From NCBI RefSeq assembly GCF_003258945.1, contig NZ_QLIX01000008.1, positions 62,001 through 126,000 of the forward strand: a stretch of DNA of 64,000 nucleotides, written 5' to 3'. Position numbers and translations under genes: made by a program. Origin of the DNA: Roseicella frigidaeris (GTDB taxonomy: Bacteria; Pseudomonadota; Alphaproteobacteria; Acetobacterales; Acetobacteraceae). The notes under the pieces are model-generated. The model ran no database searches. It was not told where the DNA came from and worked only from the letters and a program-made list of their open reading frames with translations. Position 1 is the stretch's first letter. Every line of letters starts with the position of its first letter. Shown piece by piece: positions 56,572-62,947 of this stretch.

Positions 56572-57471
56572 CTACCGCCAGCGCCGGTGCATCCAGAGCC
56601 ACTGCCCCGGATGCTCGCGCACCCAGCCTTCGACGATGCGGTTCAGCAGCGCCGTCGCCGCCTCGACATCCACCCGCCCGCGGGCATCGCGGGGCAGCAG
56701 GATGGCCTCGGTCAGCTCCAGCCGGAAGCCGCCATCCGGCTCGCGGATCGCCCGTGCGCCATGCACCGGGCAATCGAAGCGCCGCGCCAGATGCGCGACC
56801 AGCGGGTTGGCGGCCGCCGGCCGGCCGAGGAAGGGCACGCGCGGGCCGCGGCCGAAGCGCTGGTCGATCAGCATGCCGACATGCAGCCCCTCGTCGAGCG
56901 CCTCCATCATGCGGAGCGGCGCCTCGATCCCGGCCGGGATCAGCCGCCCCATGCTGGTGCTGCGCAGCGCCACGATGTCGCGGGCGATATGGGGGTTGTT
57001 CGGGGTGCGGTAGAGCACCGCCGCCGGCAGCCCGTGCCGCGCCGCGGCGATGGCCGGCAGCTCCCAGTTCGCCAGATGCGCGGCGAAGAGCAGGGCGGGC
57101 TTGCCGTCCTCGCGCAATTCCAGGAAGCGGGCGGCGACCTCGGGCGCGATGCGGATGCGCCCCGGCCGCGCTGCCTCCAGGTCGAAATCCCAGAGCCGGT
57201 CGAGATGCGGGTATTCCGCCGCGGTGCGGCCGAGATTGTCCCAGGCCGCGCGGGCGATCCGGGCATGCTCGGCCGCGGGCAGCTCGGGGAAGGCCTGGCG
57301 GATGTTGTCGAGCGCGGTGCGGTGCGCCGGCAGCCAGGGGCCGATGCCGCGGGCGAGGGCGGCGCCGAAGGCCGCCGCGCGATCCGGGCCGAGGAGGCGC
57401 ATCAGGGCGACGAGGCCGCGCACCGGCAGGGCGAGGGCGGCATCCGCCGCGCGACGCAGGCGGCGGCGCAT
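56572..57471 (-). CDS. lpxXL: Lipid A very-long-chain acyltransferase LpxXL (LpxL/HtrB family)
   Basis: 299 aa. The H-x4-D/E-type acyltransferase site appears as LFAAHLANWELPAIAA (His and Glu). N-terminal membrane segment, FPELPAAEHARIARAAW, GMLIDQRFGRGPRVPFLGRP, and a C-terminal WVREHPGQWLWMHRRW are characteristic of lauroyl/LPS acyltransferases. By family knowledge LpxXL puts the 27-hydroxyoctacosanoyl-type chain on lipid A. Last gene of the six-gene acpXL operon (5 bp from adh), in the same order as in Rhizobium. Confidence 0.88.
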   Translation of the reverse strand: MRRRLRRAADAALALPVRGLVALMRLLGPDRAAAFGAALARGIGPWLPAHRTALDNIRQAFPELPAAEHARIARAAWDNLGRTAAEYPHLDRLWDFDLEAARPGRIRIAPEVAARFLELREDGKPALLFAAHLANWELPAIAAARHGLPAAVLYRTPNNPHIARDIVALRSTSMGRLIPAGIEAPLRMMEALDEGLHVGMLIDQRFGRGPRVPFLGRPAAANPLVAHLARRFDCPVHGARAIREPDGGFRLELTEAILLPRDARGRVDVEAATALLNRIVEGWVREHPGQWLWMHRRWR

Positions 57472-57476
57472 CGCCG

Positions 57477-58499
57477 CTACAGGGTGACGAGGATCTTGCC
57501 GAAGACGCGCCGGCTCTCCAGCCGCTGCAGCGCCTCGGCGAAGCCCTCGAGCGGCGCCACGGTGTCGAGCACCGGCGTCACCCCCTGCGCCATCCGCGCC
57601 AGCCCGTCGCCGATGCGGCGCATCGGGGCGCCGAAGCTGCCGATGATCCGCAATTGCCGCTGGAACAGCATCATCAGGTTGGTCTCGGCGGCGGCGCCGC
57701 TGGTCGAGCCGCAGGTCACCAGCCGCCCGCCCATCCGCAGCGAGAGCAGCGAGCCCGCCCAGGTGGCGGCGCCGACATGCTCGAAGACGACATCGACGCC
57801 GCGCTTGCGCGTCACCTTGCGGGCCACCGCCTCGAAGCGGTCGGTCGTGTAGTTCACCACGTGGTCGGCGCCGAGCGCCCGGGCCTGGGCGCATTTCTCG
57901 TCGGAGCCGGCGGTCGCGATCACCGTGCAGCCGATCGACTTGGCGATCCGCACCGCCGCCGTGCCGATGCCCGAGCCGGCGGCCTGCACCAGCACGGTCT
58001 CGCCGGGCTCCAGCCGCGCATTGTCGAAGAGCATGTGCTCGACGGTCGAGAAGGTGATGCCGGCGCAGGCGGCGTCCTCCAGGGCGACGCCCTCCGGCAC
58101 CGGCACCAGCAGCCGCGCCTCCTGGTTCACCAGCTCCTGCGCGAAGCCGTCGAGGTGGAAGCCCTTCACCCCGCGCACATCCTCGCAGAGATTGTCGCGC
58201 CCCTCGCGGCAGGCGCGGCACTGGCCGCAGGTGACGGCGCCATAGGGCACGGCGCGCTGGCCGAGGCGCCAGCCCTCGACGCCCGCGCCGAGCGCCACCA
58301 CCTCGCCCACCGCCTCGGCGCCGACGGTCAGCGGCAGGCGGCGCTTCGCGAAGGCCATGCCGCGCCAACCCCAGACATCGATGTGGTTGAGCGCGACCGC
58401 CCGCATGCGCAGCCGCACCTCGCCCGGCCCGGGCGGCGGCGGCTCGGGGAGATCGACCAGCCGCGTGTCGCGGTCGCCGTAGAGCTGCAGGGCGCGCAT
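57477..58499 (-). CDS. Zinc-type alcohol dehydrogenase (acpXL operon, adh)
   Basis: 340 aa. MDR superfamily: catalytic-domain NHIDVWGWRG, a structural zinc Cys cluster in GAVTCGQCRACREGRDNLCE, NAD(P) motif VLVQAAGSGIGTAAVRIA and AGSDEKCAQARALGADHVVN. In the Rhizobium cluster the equivalent gene is adh2XL, presumed to work on a long-chain intermediate. Here it sits between fabF1 (21 bp) and lpxXL (5 bp) and must be translated with them. Specific substrate is inferred. Confidence 0.85.
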   Translation of the reverse strand: MRALQLYGDRDTRLVDLPEPPPPGPGEVRLRMRAVALNHIDVWGWRGMAFAKRRLPLTVGAEAVGEVVALGAGVEGWRLGQRAVPYGAVTCGQCRACREGRDNLCEDVRGVKGFHLDGFAQELVNQEARLLVPVPEGVALEDAACAGITFSTVEHMLFDNARLEPGETVLVQAAGSGIGTAAVRIAKSIGCTVIATAGSDEKCAQARALGADHVVNYTTDRFEAVARKVTRKRGVDVVFEHVGAATWAGSLLSLRMGGRLVTCGSTSGAAAETNLMMLFQRQLRIIGSFGAPMRRIGDGLARMAQGVTPVLDTVAPLEGFAEALQRLESRRVFGKILVTL

Positions 58500-58520
58500 G
58501 CCGGCTCCTATGCCTGCCGC

Positions 58521-59834
58521 TTAGGCCTGGGGGGCGGCGCCGAGGACGAGGCAGACATTCTGCCCGCCGAAGCCGAAGCTGTTCGAGAGCACGTGCCGCA
58601 CCGCCGCCGGCCGCGCCAGGTTCGGCACCACATCGAGCGGGATGGCGGGGTCGGGCACCTCGTGGTTGATGGTCGGCGGCAGCATCCCGTCGCGGATGGC
58701 GAGCAGGCTGAACACCGCCTCGATCGCGCCGGCGGCCGAGAGGGTATGGCCGATCATCGACTTGTTGGAGGAGATGGGCGGGCAGGACTCGCCGAAGACG
58801 GCGCGCATGCCGAGCGTCTCCATCTTGTCGTTCTCCGGCGTGCCGGTGCCATGCGCGTTGACGTAGTCGATGGCGCCGGGCTCGAGCCCGGCATCGGCGA
58901 TCGCCGCCCGCATGGCGCCGATGATGGCGCCGCCATCGGGGTTGCTGCGGGTGCGGTGGAAATTGTCCGCCCGCTCGCCGCAGCCCATCACCAGGCCGAG
59001 CACCGGGGCGCCGCGCGCCGTCGCCGCCTCCAGGCTCTCCAGCACCAGCGCCGCCGCGCCCTCGCTCATCACGAAGCCCTCGCGGCCCTTCTCGAAGGGG
59101 CGGGAGGCGCGCTCCGGCTCGTCGTTGCGGGTGGAGAGGGCCGAGAGCAGGGAGAAGCGGATCAGCGCCTCCGGCTGCACGCTGCCCTCGGCGCCGATGC
59201 AGAGCGCCGCCGCCGCCTCGCCGCGCTGGATCGCCTCGACGCCGAGCTGGATGGCCGAGGCGCCGGTGGCGCAGGCGGTGGTGATCTCGAGCGGCGCGCC
59301 AAGGGTGCCGAAGCGCGCCGCCAGCCGCTCGCCGATGCCGCCGAAGAGGCATTGCTCGTGCAGCGCCCGCTGCCCCGTCGCCGCGGCGGCCAGCGCCGGG
59401 TAGCGGGGCGGTTCCGCGGACGCCGCCAGGGCCTGCCGGGCCAGGGCGAGCCGATGCGGCCATTCCACCTCGACCGGCGGCATGCCGAGGCAGAGCGGGC
59501 CAGGGAAGCGACCTTGGCCGGGGAGGCCGGCGCCGGCGATCGCCTCCGCCGCCGCCAGGACGGCCATGCGCTCGACCCGGACCGGCGAGGTCAGGACCTC
59601 GCCCGCCGCATCCTCGGGCAGCGTCACCTGGCCGGCGATGGTCGTCTTCAGATGCGCGGTCGGGAAGCGGGTGATGCGGCGGATGCCGGAGCGGCCGGCG
59701 AGCAGCGCCGCCCAGCTCTCGGCCACCCCGAGGCCGAGCGGCGTCACCAGGCCGATGCCGGTGACGGCGACGCGGGGGCGGCCGCGGTGGTCGCGCAGGG
59801 CGGTGCCGGGGGGCGGCGGGGCTGTCTCGGTCAT
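58521..59834 (-). CDS. 3-Oxoacyl-ACP synthase (FabF-type, acpXL operon; active-site Cys present)
   Basis: 437 aa. Condensing enzyme that extends an acyl-ACP by two carbons. The nucleophile Cys (about 188) is in EITTACATGASAIQ, the two His in YVNAHGTGTPENDK and SMIGHTLSAAGAIEA. C-terminal SNSFGFGGQNVCLVL is also normal. It corresponds to fabF1XL of the Rhizobium acpXL cluster, where such enzymes elongate on AcpXL to C28. The ATG overlaps the stop of the second synthase gene (ATGA). Confidence 0.9.
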   Translation of the reverse strand: MTETAPPPPGTALRDHRGRPRVAVTGIGLVTPLGLGVAESWAALLAGRSGIRRITRFPTAHLKTTIAGQVTLPEDAAGEVLTSPVRVERMAVLAAAEAIAGAGLPGQGRFPGPLCLGMPPVEVEWPHRLALARQALAASAEPPRYPALAAAATGQRALHEQCLFGGIGERLAARFGTLGAPLEITTACATGASAIQLGVEAIQRGEAAAALCIGAEGSVQPEALIRFSLLSALSTRNDEPERASRPFEKGREGFVMSEGAAALVLESLEAATARGAPVLGLVMGCGERADNFHRTRSNPDGGAIIGAMRAAIADAGLEPGAIDYVNAHGTGTPENDKMETLGMRAVFGESCPPISSNKSMIGHTLSAAGAIEAVFSLLAIRDGMLPPTINHEVPDPAIPLDVVPNLARPAAVRHVLSNSFGFGGQNVCLVLGAAPQA

Positions 59835-60973
59835 GCGACGGGCTCCACCAGGGCCAGCGCCTCGCCGCGCCAGGCACCGAAGCCGGTGACGAGGGCCTGC
59901 GGGGCGTCGCCGGCGGCGACGGCGAGGGTGGCGAGGGCGAGGCTGGCCGGGAAGCCCGCCTCGACCGCATGGCCGATCAGGTCGGCGCTGTGGATGACGG
60001 GGCCGGGCGCGGCGCCGCCGGCGCGCAGCCCGGCGAGGAAGCGGGCCTCGGCCAAGCCGGCCGCGGCGGCGCCGCTGGCGCCGGAGAGCACGACATGGCC
60101 GGGCCGCAGCGGCAGGTCCCGGGCCAGGGCGGCAGCCGAGGCCTCGGCCGTGTCCTCGGCCGTGCGCCGGGCGGCCCCGCTGCGCACCGGGCCGAGCCGG
60201 GCGAGGCCGCCGGCGCCGCGGCCGCGGGCATGGGTCTCGGTCTCCAGCACCAGGAAGGCCGCGGCGCTGCCGGTGACGAGGCCCGGGCCGTCCGCCGGGC
60301 GCTCGGCCAGCGGCACCCAGGGCCCGCGCCGGAGCTCGCCCGAAGCGGCGTGCAGCAGCAGCATGTCCCAGCGCCCGGCGACATAGGCGCCGCCGACCAG
60401 GGCGATGCCGCCGCGCCCCTCGGCCAGCCGCGCCGCGGCGATGCGCACCGCATCGGCCCCCGCCGCCTCCTCGCCCATGAGGGTGCGGGAGGAGCCGGTC
60501 ACCCCATGGACGATGGAGATGTTGCCGGCCAGCAGGTTGGAGAGCTGGGCCAGGAAGAGGGTGGGCCGCAGGCCCGAGGCGAGCAGGGCGTTCAGCCGCT
60601 CGCCCGCTTCCCCGGCCGGCAGCCGGGCGATCTCGGCGCAGACCGCCTCGTCGAGCGCGGTGTCGCGCTCGCCGCCGCCGGCCGCGACGACGAGGTGCAT
60701 GTCGGCGACGCAGCCCCGCGCCCCGGCCTGGTCGAGCGCGAGCCCGGCGGCATAGGTGCCGAGGCGCTGCCAGGGCTCCATCTGGCGCTGGTCGCCCCGC
60801 TTCGGGATCTGCCGGTCGAGCTCGAGCGCCGGCAGGGGGTGGATGGGGTAGGGGGCGAAGCTCGTGTCATCGACCACGGGCGCGCGGCCGGCGAGGGCGG
60901 CGCGATGGATCTCCGGCCCCTCGCCGAGCGAGGAGACCAGGCCGATGCCGGTGATCCAGATGCTCTCGGTCAT
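59831..60973 (-). CDS. Condensing-enzyme homologue lacking the catalytic Cys (acpXL operon, fabF2-like)
   Basis: 380 aa, shorter than the active partner. The thiolase fold is kept (IWITGIGLVSSLGEG at the N terminus; GPGLVTGSAAAFLVLE; IHSADLIGHAVEAGFPASLA with one His). The nucleophile elbow reads HGVTGSSRTLMGEEAAGADA, so the Cys position is Gly/Ser, and the first catalytic His region is HVVLSGASGAAAAG. It cannot condense by the usual mechanism; a chain-length-factor-like partner of the active synthase is the natural guess. In Rhizobium the counterpart is fabF2XL. Confidence 0.82.
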   Translation of the reverse strand: MTESIWITGIGLVSSLGEGPEIHRAALAGRAPVVDDTSFAPYPIHPLPALELDRQIPKRGDQRQMEPWQRLGTYAAGLALDQAGARGCVADMHLVVAAGGGERDTALDEAVCAEIARLPAGEAGERLNALLASGLRPTLFLAQLSNLLAGNISIVHGVTGSSRTLMGEEAAGADAVRIAAARLAEGRGGIALVGGAYVAGRWDMLLLHAASGELRRGPWVPLAERPADGPGLVTGSAAAFLVLETETHARGRGAGGLARLGPVRSGAARRTAEDTAEASAAALARDLPLRPGHVVLSGASGAAAAGLAEARFLAGLRAGGAAPGPVIHSADLIGHAVEAGFPASLALATLAVAAGDAPQALVTGFGAWRGEALALVEPVA

Positions 60974-61009
60974 GCTGTGCTCGCTCGGATCATGCCTGCT
61001 GAGGCGCGG

Positions 61010-61471
61010 TCAGGGCCGTGGCGCGGCGGCGAGCCCGATGCGCTCCGCCTGGGCGCGCATCGCGGCCTCGAGCTCGGGCGTCGGGAAGGGCAGGGTGCGG
61101 AGCGTCAGCTCGGCGTCGCAGAGGCGCTGGCCCCCCCTGGCGACGCCGGTCCGCAGCACCGCATAGCCGGAGCCGTCATGCGCGAGCCGGGCCGAGACCT
61201 CGAGCCGGGTTTCGGGCGGCACGAAATTGCGGAACTTCGCCTCCTTCACGGCGGCGAGGAAGGGCATGCGGGCGAAGTCCTGCCGGTAGAGCAGCAGATA
61301 ACCCGCGGCCTGGGCCATGGTCTCGACCAGCAGCACGCCGGGGACGAGCGGATATCCCGGGAAATGCCCCTCGAAGACCGGGCTCGCGGCCGGTACCAGC
61401 GCCTCGGCCTCGATGCTCTCGGGACCGACCGCGAGCACCCGGTCGATCATCTGGAAATACTCGAGGCGCAC
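61010..61471 (-). CDS. 3-Hydroxyacyl-ACP dehydratase FabZ-type (acpXL operon)
   Basis: 153 aa from a GTG at 61471. Hot-dog fold; active-site His36 in FEGHFPGYPLVPGVLLVETM (HFPG-Y replacing the usual HFPGH) and Glu50. It removes water in each elongation round. The GTG stands 9 bp after the acpXL stop; the counterpart is fabZXL. RLAHDGSGYAVLRTGVARGG continues the usual strands. Gene order acpXL-fabZ-fabF2-fabF1-adh-lpxXL equals the known cluster. Confidence 0.88.
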   Translation of the reverse strand: MRLEYFQMIDRVLAVGPESIEAEALVPAASPVFEGHFPGYPLVPGVLLVETMAQAAGYLLLYRQDFARMPFLAAVKEAKFRNFVPPETRLEVSARLAHDGSGYAVLRTGVARGGQRLCDAELTLRTLPFPTPELEAAMRAQAERIGLAAAPRP

Positions 61472-61480
61472 GGCCCGGGG

Positions 61481-61768
61481 TCAGCCGTTCGCGGCCTTCG
61501 CCGCCACCAGCTCCTCGATGCGCGTCGCGAGGTTCTTCATGACGAAATACTGCTCGGCCGGCGCCTGGCCGGAATTCACTTCCTGCGTCCAGGTCTCGAC
61601 CGGCACCTTGATCCCGAAATCCTTGTCGATGGCGAAGACGATGTCGAGGAAGTCCAGGCTGTCGATGCCCAGGTCCTCGATCACATGGCTGTCCGGCAGG
61701 ATCGTCTCGCGTGGGACGTCGGACGTCTCCGCGATGATGTCGGCGATGCGGTCGAACGCCGATGCCAT
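61481..61768 (-). CDS. acpXL: Dedicated acyl carrier protein AcpXL
   Basis: 95 aa, longer than housekeeping ACP. Phosphopantetheine serine is Ser37 in [20 protein letters not shown]. The C-terminal half ([20 protein letters not shown] and [13 protein letters not shown]) is characteristic of AcpXL, not of AcpP. It carries the growing very-long acyl chain for lipid A. First gene of the operon; two tRNA-Leu genes lie upstream on the same strand, the nearer one 170 bp away. Confidence 0.92.
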
Positions 61769-61938
61769 GGCGAATCTCCGGGCTGGGCTGTGAAACAGGC
61801 GGGTCTTTCGCCCGAACCGCCCGGCTTGTCCAGCAGGCCGGGGCGCGCGCGGCGGGCGTCCCGCGAGGCCCGCGGCGCGGCGGATGGCGGGGCCGCCATG
61901 AAACCGCAAGCCGGGCCGGGAGGGTGCTGCCGGGAGAG

Positions 61939-62022
61939 TAGGGGTGGCCGGACTCGAACCGGCAAGACCTTGCGGTCGGGGCATTTTGAGTGCCCTGCGT
62001 CAACCAATTCCGCCACACCCCC
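61939..62022 (-). tRNA. tRNA-Leu (anticodon CAA)
   Basis: 84 nt, class II tRNA. Acceptor GGGGGTG pairs with CACCCCT (one G-U). D arm GCGGAATTGGTTGACGC; anticodon stem GGGCA / TGCCC around loop CTCAAAA with anticodon CAA; long variable arm CGACCGCAAGGTC; T arm GCCGGTTCGAGTCCGGC. The discriminator is A. The 3' CCA is not encoded. Reads UUG. Confidence 0.95.
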
Positions 62023-62114
62023 GCGGCCGCCCCTGGATAGGGCCCGGCCGCCTGCGGCGCAAGGATCGCGACGGTGGCGCGAGGGCGAGGGGGAGAGAGG
62101 GGGTCGAATGCGCG

Positions 62115-62149
62115 GCAGCGCCGCCTGGGACCTGCCCAGGCGGCGCTGC
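62115..62149. terminator. 15-bp perfect inverted repeat between the two tRNA genes
   Basis: GCAGCGCCGCCTGGG (62115-62129) and its exact complement (62135-62149) flank the loop ACCTG, starting 20 bp downstream of the tRNA-Leu(UAG) end on the minus strand. No T-run follows, so it is either a U-less terminator or a processing hairpin. Confidence 0.55.
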
Positions 62150-62168
62150 GTTGCTCACAAGCAATCGA

Positions 62169-62462
62169 TGGTGGGCCTCCCTGGACTCGAACCAGGACGC
62201 CTCTGAGGCCCGCGACACTCATACCACTTCGGCTTTCGCCGCCCCGTTGCCGGGTTCGTGGTCTGGACTGTCCCTTCGCCCTACCACTCGCGTGGGTTAG
62301 GCGCCGCCCGTCCAGTCTCTACACCTTCCCATGTCTGGGCTTGGCTCGGGATCAACAGTGAAGTCTTCCCCGACTTTGAGCGGTTCTACTCCCGGCATTT
62401 CCACCGGGGCACCCAGTTGTTCATCCTAGGTCGCGGTCGTCTACCATTTCCGACAGAGGCCC
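62169..62462 (-). tRNA. tRNA-Leu (anticodon UAG), interrupted by a group I intron
   Basis: Two exons: 5' exon 62462-62428 (35 nt) and 3' exon 62219-62169 (51 nt, CCA encoded). Acceptor GGGCCTC / GAGGCCC; D arm TCGGAAATGGTAGACGA; anticodon stem CGCGA / TCGCG; variable arm GCCT-CAG-AGGC; T arm CCTGGTTCGAGTCCAGG; discriminator A. Joining the exons gives a 7-nt loop CCU|AGUG with anticodon UAG, cut between positions 34 and 35, the same site as the cyanobacterial tRNA-Leu(UAA) intron. Odd: position 33 is C where U is nearly invariant, and C32-G38 could extend the stem. Confidence 0.85.
62220..62427 (-). ncRNA. Group I intron (IC3-like, 208 nt) in the tRNA-Leu(UAG) anticodon loop
   Basis: Minus-strand landmarks: the internal guide GGGU pairs with exon ACCU, leaving a U-G pair at the 5' splice site; the core segment GAAGGUGUAGAGACUGGACGG is of the type known from Azoarcus and cyanobacterial tRNA introns; P7 pairs GACUG with CAGUC; CGAGCCAAGC precedes it; the 3' part has a GGCGAAAGCC hairpin with GAAA loop; the last base is G. 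ACU next to the guide can pair with exon AGU (P10). No open frame for a homing endonuclease. Compact, like the 205-nt Azoarcus intron as I remember it. Confidence 0.88.
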
Positions 62463-62947
62463 GATGGCGTTTTGGTAACGGAATTCATTAAGCGTGAGCA
62501 AGCCCAAAGTCAGACAATTTTCATAGCGTTTCGGTGATAACTCGGGACGCGATGCTGCACCAGCGCTCAGCCGCCTCGAGTGGATGGCGCCAGGACGCCA
62601 ACAGCCGCTGCGAGCAGGCCAGTGCCGCACTCGAGATGCTGGAATAGTTTTAACATAGAATGAACCACCGCTGCGCGTGCCTTGCCCAAGGACGACGCGT
62701 ATCGCGTGTGTCGCCGACTGCCCGCCGGCGGATGGGGGGCTCGGGCGCCAGGCGGTCCAGGCGGCCGGCCGGGCTCTCGCCGCGCGGTCCGCCCCGGATG
62801 CGCCCCGGCCGGGGTGTGCGGGGCAGGTTGGTGATATCGCATCACATCTCTCTTTTCCGTGTGTTTTGCTCACGAGAGTGTGTATTAGAGATGCACATCA
62901 TCCGAGGCGGACGCCTCGCAACGCCTTGCGCTGAAGGAACACCGCTG
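62463..62947. other. Gap upstream of tRNA-Leu(UAG), nothing coding recognised
   Basis: 485 bases. The part next to the tRNA (62463-62530) is A+T-rich (GGTAACGGAATTCATTAAGC, CAATTTTCATAGCG) and should hold the tRNA promoter on the minus strand. A second A+T-rich patch at 62640-62665 and one at 62845-62905 (CTCTTTTCCGTGTGTTTTGC) may drive the rightward small membrane protein gene. Frames crossing the G+C-rich middle look like noise. No integrase or attachment-site duplication was seen beside the tRNA. Confidence 0.45.

Follow-up and report, generated by a model that had tools for sequence, protein, structure and literature searches.

The known group I intron of leucine tRNAs is inserted between U34 and A35, and the intron of Azoarcus tRNA-Ile(CAU) is a small tRNA group I ribozyme with a P3-P8 core comparable to that of the intron described here, from which it differs in its host, insertion site, and peripheral loops. 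Leucine tRNA has been noted as a group I intron host (PMC4033280), and alphaproteobacterial introns of this type split tRNA-Arg(CCU) in Agrobacterium and in Bartonella, where the intron, BbgpI, splices both in vivo and in vitro (PMC7717549). Here, we analysed a 64,000-nt stretch of the Roseicella frigidaeris genome (hereafter, the window), in which a leucine tRNA gene is split by an insert. Like the known Leu-hosted intron, this one has a leucine host and a 34/35 insertion; however, its spliced anticodon would be UAG, its host is probably derived from a tRNA-Leu(CAA), and an intact gene with the same anticodon is present in the genome. With the Arg(CCU) introns read here, it shares (i) a core homologous over about 200 nt, (ii) a similar length, (iii) the lack of a gathering-level Rfam match, and (iv) a host tRNA that is hidden from annotation, whereas those introns reside in another tRNA, are inserted after U36, and form a separate clade in our tree. 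Self-splicing, shown for BbgpI (PMC7717549), is predicted for the window intron. Group I introns in tRNA genes are a known kind; the anticodon shift at this locus is the novel case.

On the minus strand of the window, the sequence reads as two halves of a class II tRNA, at 62428-62462 and 62169-62219, separated by a 208-nt insert at 62220-62427 that ends in a G at 62220. The 5' exon (GGGCCUCUGUCGGAAAUGGUAGACGACCGCGACCU) comprises the acceptor 5' strand, the D arm, the 5' strand of the anticodon stem, and C32, C33, and U34. The 3' exon (AGUGUCGCGGGCCUCAGAGGCGUCCUGGUUCGAGUCCAGGGAGGCCCACCA) comprises A35, G36, U37, and G38, the 3' strand of the anticodon stem, a long variable arm, the T arm, the acceptor 3' strand, and A73, and its CCA (62171-62169) is genome-encoded. 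When the exons are joined, ARAGORN calls a tRNA-Leu(tag) with A73, the long variable arm, and the encoded CCA, and the spliced sequence forms a cloverleaf with a class II variable arm and a 7-nt anticodon loop. The original prediction had proposed these two halves, with a group I intron of the same boundaries between them, and both proposals are borne out: the halves by the ARAGORN call on the joined exons and the intron by that call together with the model match, homology, tree placement, and covariation described below.

The unspliced stretch yields no tRNA in ARAGORN. Its intron mode reads the unspliced gene as Ser(aga) with a 206-nt intron, a boundary slip that is overridden by the invariant terminal G, P1, and the empty-site relatives; the same mode calls many Arg(CCU) genes His(atg), which are likewise boundary-slip artefacts. 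Other splice sites in the window (after G36, or with the terminal G at 62218) would give an identical product but without guide pairing, and the remaining alternatives were rejected because they leave anticodon loops of the wrong length. A scan of 62020-62800 for promoters and terminators found none.

The Rfam group I model RF00028, proposed earlier as a check on the intron, aligns over its full length with 62424-62240 (27.1 bits; E 8e-5 for 701 bases searched), but this score lies under its gathering cut-off of 50 bits. The default Rfam scan of the window therefore does not report the intron and returns only the neighbouring tRNA-Leu(CAA). None of 17 related intron loci, those in Arg(CCU) included, gave a gathering-level match to RF00028 (L001, L050-L058, L062-L064, L081, L082, L087, and L090), so the cut-off does not discriminate for these tRNA introns. 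The expectation that annotation tools would overlook the gene thus held for ARAGORN and default Rfam, but its corollary, that the genome would lose its tRNA-Leu(UAG), did not, since an intact copy exists. At E<=0.001, the query gene matched in 137 of the 299 genomes of the bacterial family, mostly across the intron core, and whole-gene matches at 82-83% occur in two genera other than that of the window; matches in phages were partial only and confined to four records.

The fold of the insert was assessed by laying the group I structure of the window sequence on an alignment of 26 introns, leaving P1 and P2, which do not align across hosts, out of the count. Across the 26 relatives, 98.2% of the cells in the core are paired and 14 of 42 pairs have changed on both sides, with two-sided changes in P3, P7, and P8; none of 500 shuffles scored as high, and sliding the structure by one to three columns left 26-46% paired. 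P3 (minus strand, as are all helices here; 62304-62383, CCGCUC at 62383-62378 with GGGCGG at 62309-62304) forms a pseudoknot with P7 and is paired in 26/26 sequences, three of its pairs having changed on both sides. The P4/P5 domain (62346-62373, UCGGG at 62373-62369 with CCCGA at 62350-62346) is invariant in the 26 sequences; P7, the G-binding helix (62266-62317, GACUG at 62317-62313 with CAGUC at 62270-62266), is paired in all of them, with one pair changed from GC to AU in three; and the P9 domain (62224-62261, CCAC at 62261-62258 with GUGG at 62227-62224) encloses P9.1 and a GAAA-capped P9.2. The P2 hairpin (62391-62408) reads CCCGGUG-GAAA-UGCCGGG, and its pairing is preserved as CCUGGUG-GAAA-CAUCAGG in a second Roseicella genome (G024). 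In P1, the internal guide sequence GGGU (62411-62414) pairs with the exon ACCU (62431-62428), which sets U34 against a G at the splice site; this helix extends to ACCUAG/CUGGGU, with a hairpin energy of -7.5 kcal/mol. The last intron base is a G in 26/26 sequences. The guide, the U34-G pair, P7, a GAAA-capped hairpin, and the terminal G at 62220, all named in the original prediction, are thus present.

The full-length model match and the covariation of the 26 sequences together delineate a group I core (P3-P4-P6-P7-P8, with the P3/P7 pseudoknot). A chance resemblance, or an insert of some other kind, would find support in the RF00028 score under the gathering cut-off, yet the related loci with such introns fall under it as well, and the homology, the covariation, the invariant terminal G, and the exact tRNA halves already refute this reading computationally; we regard its probability as negligible. 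Chance resemblance being excluded on these sequence grounds, we consider the group I identity settled. By resemblance to tRNA introns, the intron would be of the IC3 type, with a length of 208 nt, a host tRNA that is split in the anticodon loop, and homologues in Arg, Leu, and Thr tRNAs.

Related introns were typed by host-specific patterns (Arg(UCU) by eye) at 99 loci, a set drawn from a single query and therefore biased to relatives of the window intron, and their hosts were Arg(CCU) (55), Leu(UAA) (24), Leu(CAA) (8), Thr(GGU) (6), Arg(UCU) (four), and the Leu type of the window (2). All of these loci belong to one bacterial family, apart from a plasmid and a handful of named MAG or genome records, the latter possibly duplicating genomes already in the count. 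The list of known hosts given with the original prediction, which included Leu(UAA) and Arg(CCU), was too short for this lineage, as Leu(CAA), Thr(GGU), and Arg(UCU) also serve as hosts in this family. In the literature covered, none of the papers found describes Leu(UAG), Leu(CAA), Thr(GGU), or Arg(UCU) as a bacterial group I intron host, an absence that counts for little because the key papers of 1997 and 1999 lie outside that coverage.

Several of these loci deserve mention in their own right. In four genomes of the family (L179, L192, L218, and L219), a related intron lies in an apparent tRNA-Arg(UCU), with a cut after U34 and the loop CUUCUAA. The window genome contains a second intron (G000:C23:60330-60529, minus strand; L001:1480-1690), which splits a tRNA-Thr(GGU) after U36, with the loop UUGGUAA; as this is the only Thr(GGU) found in the genome, translation there should depend on the splicing of that intron. 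On plasmid pCTX-M3 (L079:3991-4203), an intron of the same type splits a tRNA-Leu(UAA) near aac(3)-IId. In total, 1270 plasmid records, most of them from Enterobacteriaceae, contain partial matches to the window intron; of these, pCTX-M3 is the one that was read.

In a tree of 35 introns, the clades follow the host (Arg(CCU), Thr(GGU), Leu(UAA), and Leu(CAA)), and the window intron, together with its sister from G024, Roseicella sp. DB1501 (L050), nests in the Leu(CAA) clade with 100/98 support. The Leu(CAA)-hosted introns of Belnapia, Rhodopila MAGs, and relatives (L051, L052, L081, L082, L087, and L090) belong to this clade and occupy the same 34/35 site, and two of them (L051 and L052) are 82-83% identical to the window gene across exons and intron. 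They are, however, spliced after C34, which gives the canonical loop CUCAAAA with a C-G pair at the splice site, and intron-less (empty-site) relatives (L104 and L105) have CUCAAAA at the same place, which fixes the 34/35 boundary in the Leu(CAA) clade. A further difference from the window gene lies in Belnapia arida T18 (G274) and in G231, where all nine intact class II tRNAs were read, including four intact Leu tRNAs; none of the nine is an intact Leu(CAA), and the intron-split gene is therefore the only Leu(CAA) found there. Relative to these genes, CU-CAA-AA has become CC-UAG-UG in the loop of the window gene, and probably CC-CAG-UG in that of DB1501, with loss of the nearly invariant U33. 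When the intron, its splicing mechanism, and its descent are taken jointly, we consider it likely that the split gene arose from an intron-split tRNA-Leu(CAA) and is now a supernumerary leucine tRNA. This explanation is based on the sequence and its homologues, on covariation, on the tRNA genes present, and on the position in the tree, and within it we infer splicing, leucine charging, decoding, and the order of events.

The window genome (G000; 5.82 Mb, 98.5% complete) has five intact Leu tRNAs (UAG, UAA, CAG, GAG, and CAA), to which the split gene adds a sixth Leu gene. Its intact, canonical tRNA-Leu(UAG) is located at G000:C12:137066 (L037), and accordingly we rejected a missing-isoacceptor reading; the implication of the original prediction that the split gene is the only tRNA-Leu(UAG) gene fails for the same reason. 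About 100-150 bases downstream of the split gene, both the window genome and G024 carry an intact Leu(CAA) that differs from it in sequence and makes it redundant for Leu(CAA). In the window, this neighbour occupies 61938-62022 on the minus strand (ARAGORN; Rfam tRNA, 54 bits). In the remaining three genomes of the genus, an intact Leu(CAA) shares a contig with acpXL. The window neighbour differs from the Leu(CAA) of those three genomes and lacks an encoded CCA, which suggests that this neighbour was acquired. The split gene itself has no match in three of the five genomes of the genus, its version being carried by two genomes only. Further downstream, the genes at 56572-61765 (minus strand) resemble an acpXL lipid A cluster and comprise, as named by eye, an acyl carrier protein, a FabZ-like, two FabF-like, an alcohol dehydrogenase-like, and an acyltransferase-like gene.

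The spliced loop, CCUAGUG, has C33 and U37 and thus contains neither the U33 nor the purine at 37 of a functional decoder; the canonical Leu(UAG) loop of the same genome is UUUAGGU. U33 was present in the intact tRNAs examined in the window genome, with two script-flagged exceptions, Lys(UUU) and Glu(CUC), that we take for off-by-one errors in string matching. Since C33, U37, and possible pairing between C32 and G38 are unfavourable for decoding, it is doubtful whether the split tRNA decodes. In the sister, G024, the splice register is ambiguous owing to an extra C. In one register, ACCC pairs with GGGU and the cut follows C34, leaving the 7-nt loop CCCAGUG with the anticodon CAG; in the other, CCU-AG pairs with CUGGG and the cut follows the next U, leaving an 8-nt loop (CCCUAGUG). 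The Leu(UAG) identity assigned in the original prediction therefore applies to the literal anticodon after splicing, but is qualified by the C33/U37 loop, the Leu(CAA) descent, and a sister that reads CAG or has an 8-nt loop.

Comparison of the window with G024 bears on whether the split gene is maintained. The exons are identical at 85/86 positions, the intron at 190/208 positions (with one indel in addition), and the 80-nt upstream flank at 50/80 (62%); exon conservation differs strongly from that of the upstream flank (Fisher p = 2.5e-10), and its excess over the intron is weakly significant (p = 0.017). Intron differences in the listed helices preserve pairing, save for one apparent break at column 159, next to an inserted C, which the alignment itself probably causes. 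Moreover, relative to the Leu(CAA) relatives, the differences in the acceptor and T stems are compensated (GGGCCUC/GAGGCCC versus GGCCCUC/GAGGGCC). The strong conservation of the tRNA body suggests that the split tRNA is probably not dead, and the exon conservation, together with the helix-preserving intron changes, argues that the spliced product still matters in both lineages. LeuRS in E. coli is anticodon-independent, and the product would therefore probably still be charged with leucine.

What the product does is a separate matter, and the proposals for it are all compatible with descent from an intron-split tRNA-Leu(CAA), since they concern only its role. The gene might be a decaying relic, whose intron may splice but whose redundant product goes unused in translation while the loop drifts freely. 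This fits the intact Leu(UAG) and Leu(CAA) elsewhere in the genome, C33 and U37 where the intact tRNAs of the genome have U33, a sister that differs in anticodon position or loop length, and the absence of the gene from 3/5 genomes of the genus; we nevertheless find it rather unlikely, given a tRNA body that two species share unchanged although their upstream flanks agree at only 62%, intron changes that preserve helices, and compensated acceptor and T-stem pairs. That same conserved body, along with A73, the long variable arm, the encoded CCA, and the Leu(tag) call on the joined exons, would suit a second tRNA-Leu(UAG) isodecoder, expressed and reading CUA and CUG as a working extra Leu tRNA. 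Such a role is quite possible, although we would not assume it, because CCUAGUG has neither U33 nor a purine at 37 (and hence no G37 for m1G), the sister has another anticodon or another loop length, and the genome already has a canonical Leu(UAG). A conserved body with an unconventional conserved loop, in a tRNA redundant for decoding, could also point to a non-decoding job (for example, leucyl-tRNA as an amino-acid donor) in which a poor anticodon loop is tolerated; the neighbouring genes (a tRNA and what is probably an acpXL lipid A cluster) speak against it, and we judge it very improbable.

The sequence is best read as a leucine tRNA gene that is redundant and has undergone an anticodon shift, and that hosts a tRNA group I intron of the typical kind. 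In the mechanism that we propose, the intron, located between positions 34 and 35, would fold after transcription; a free G bound in P7 would cut after U34, paired with the guide G; and U34 would then be ligated to A35 as the intron leaves with its terminal G, yielding a mature leucine tRNA with CCA. In the window lineage, the adjoining intact Leu(CAA) would have freed the split copy from reading UUG, so that the loop could change from CUCAAAA to CCUAGUG, whose UAG anticodon would in principle read CUA and CUG. The changed loop has strengthened P1, which has an energy of -7.5 kcal/mol in the window versus -3.4 and -4.3 in two Leu(CAA) relatives, and the changes of A36 to G36 and A37 to U37 let AGU pair with the ACU just before the guide, a possible P10 recognized by eye. 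The changes at 33 and 34 would thus account for the stronger P1 and the U-G at the splice site, those that follow for the AGU/ACU pairing (P10), and the anticodon loop is now no worse a fit for the ribozyme than for the ribosome. A bolder proposal is that the intron itself reshaped the anticodon: in a copy made redundant by the intact Leu(CAA), the loop would have evolved to fit the ribozyme (P1, the splice-site U-G, and P10), its reading shifting from UUG to CUA/CUG and U33 being dropped, while selection continued to act on the body, perhaps for a function in which decoding plays little or no part. On this view, one boundary base in the window genome appears to have moved from the intron to the anticodon. 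We offer this only tentatively and think it unlikely as a whole.

If the intron splices, the locus would be a natural case of a self-splicing intron that has outlived the original decoding job of its tRNA, with the anticodon changed around the intron. Two close species that differ at the splice-site base would then allow a direct test of how splice-site pairing conflicts with anticodon function. In practical terms, the related introns read here score under the default Rfam cut-off and hide their host tRNAs, including what is apparently the only tRNA-Thr(GGU) of the window genome.
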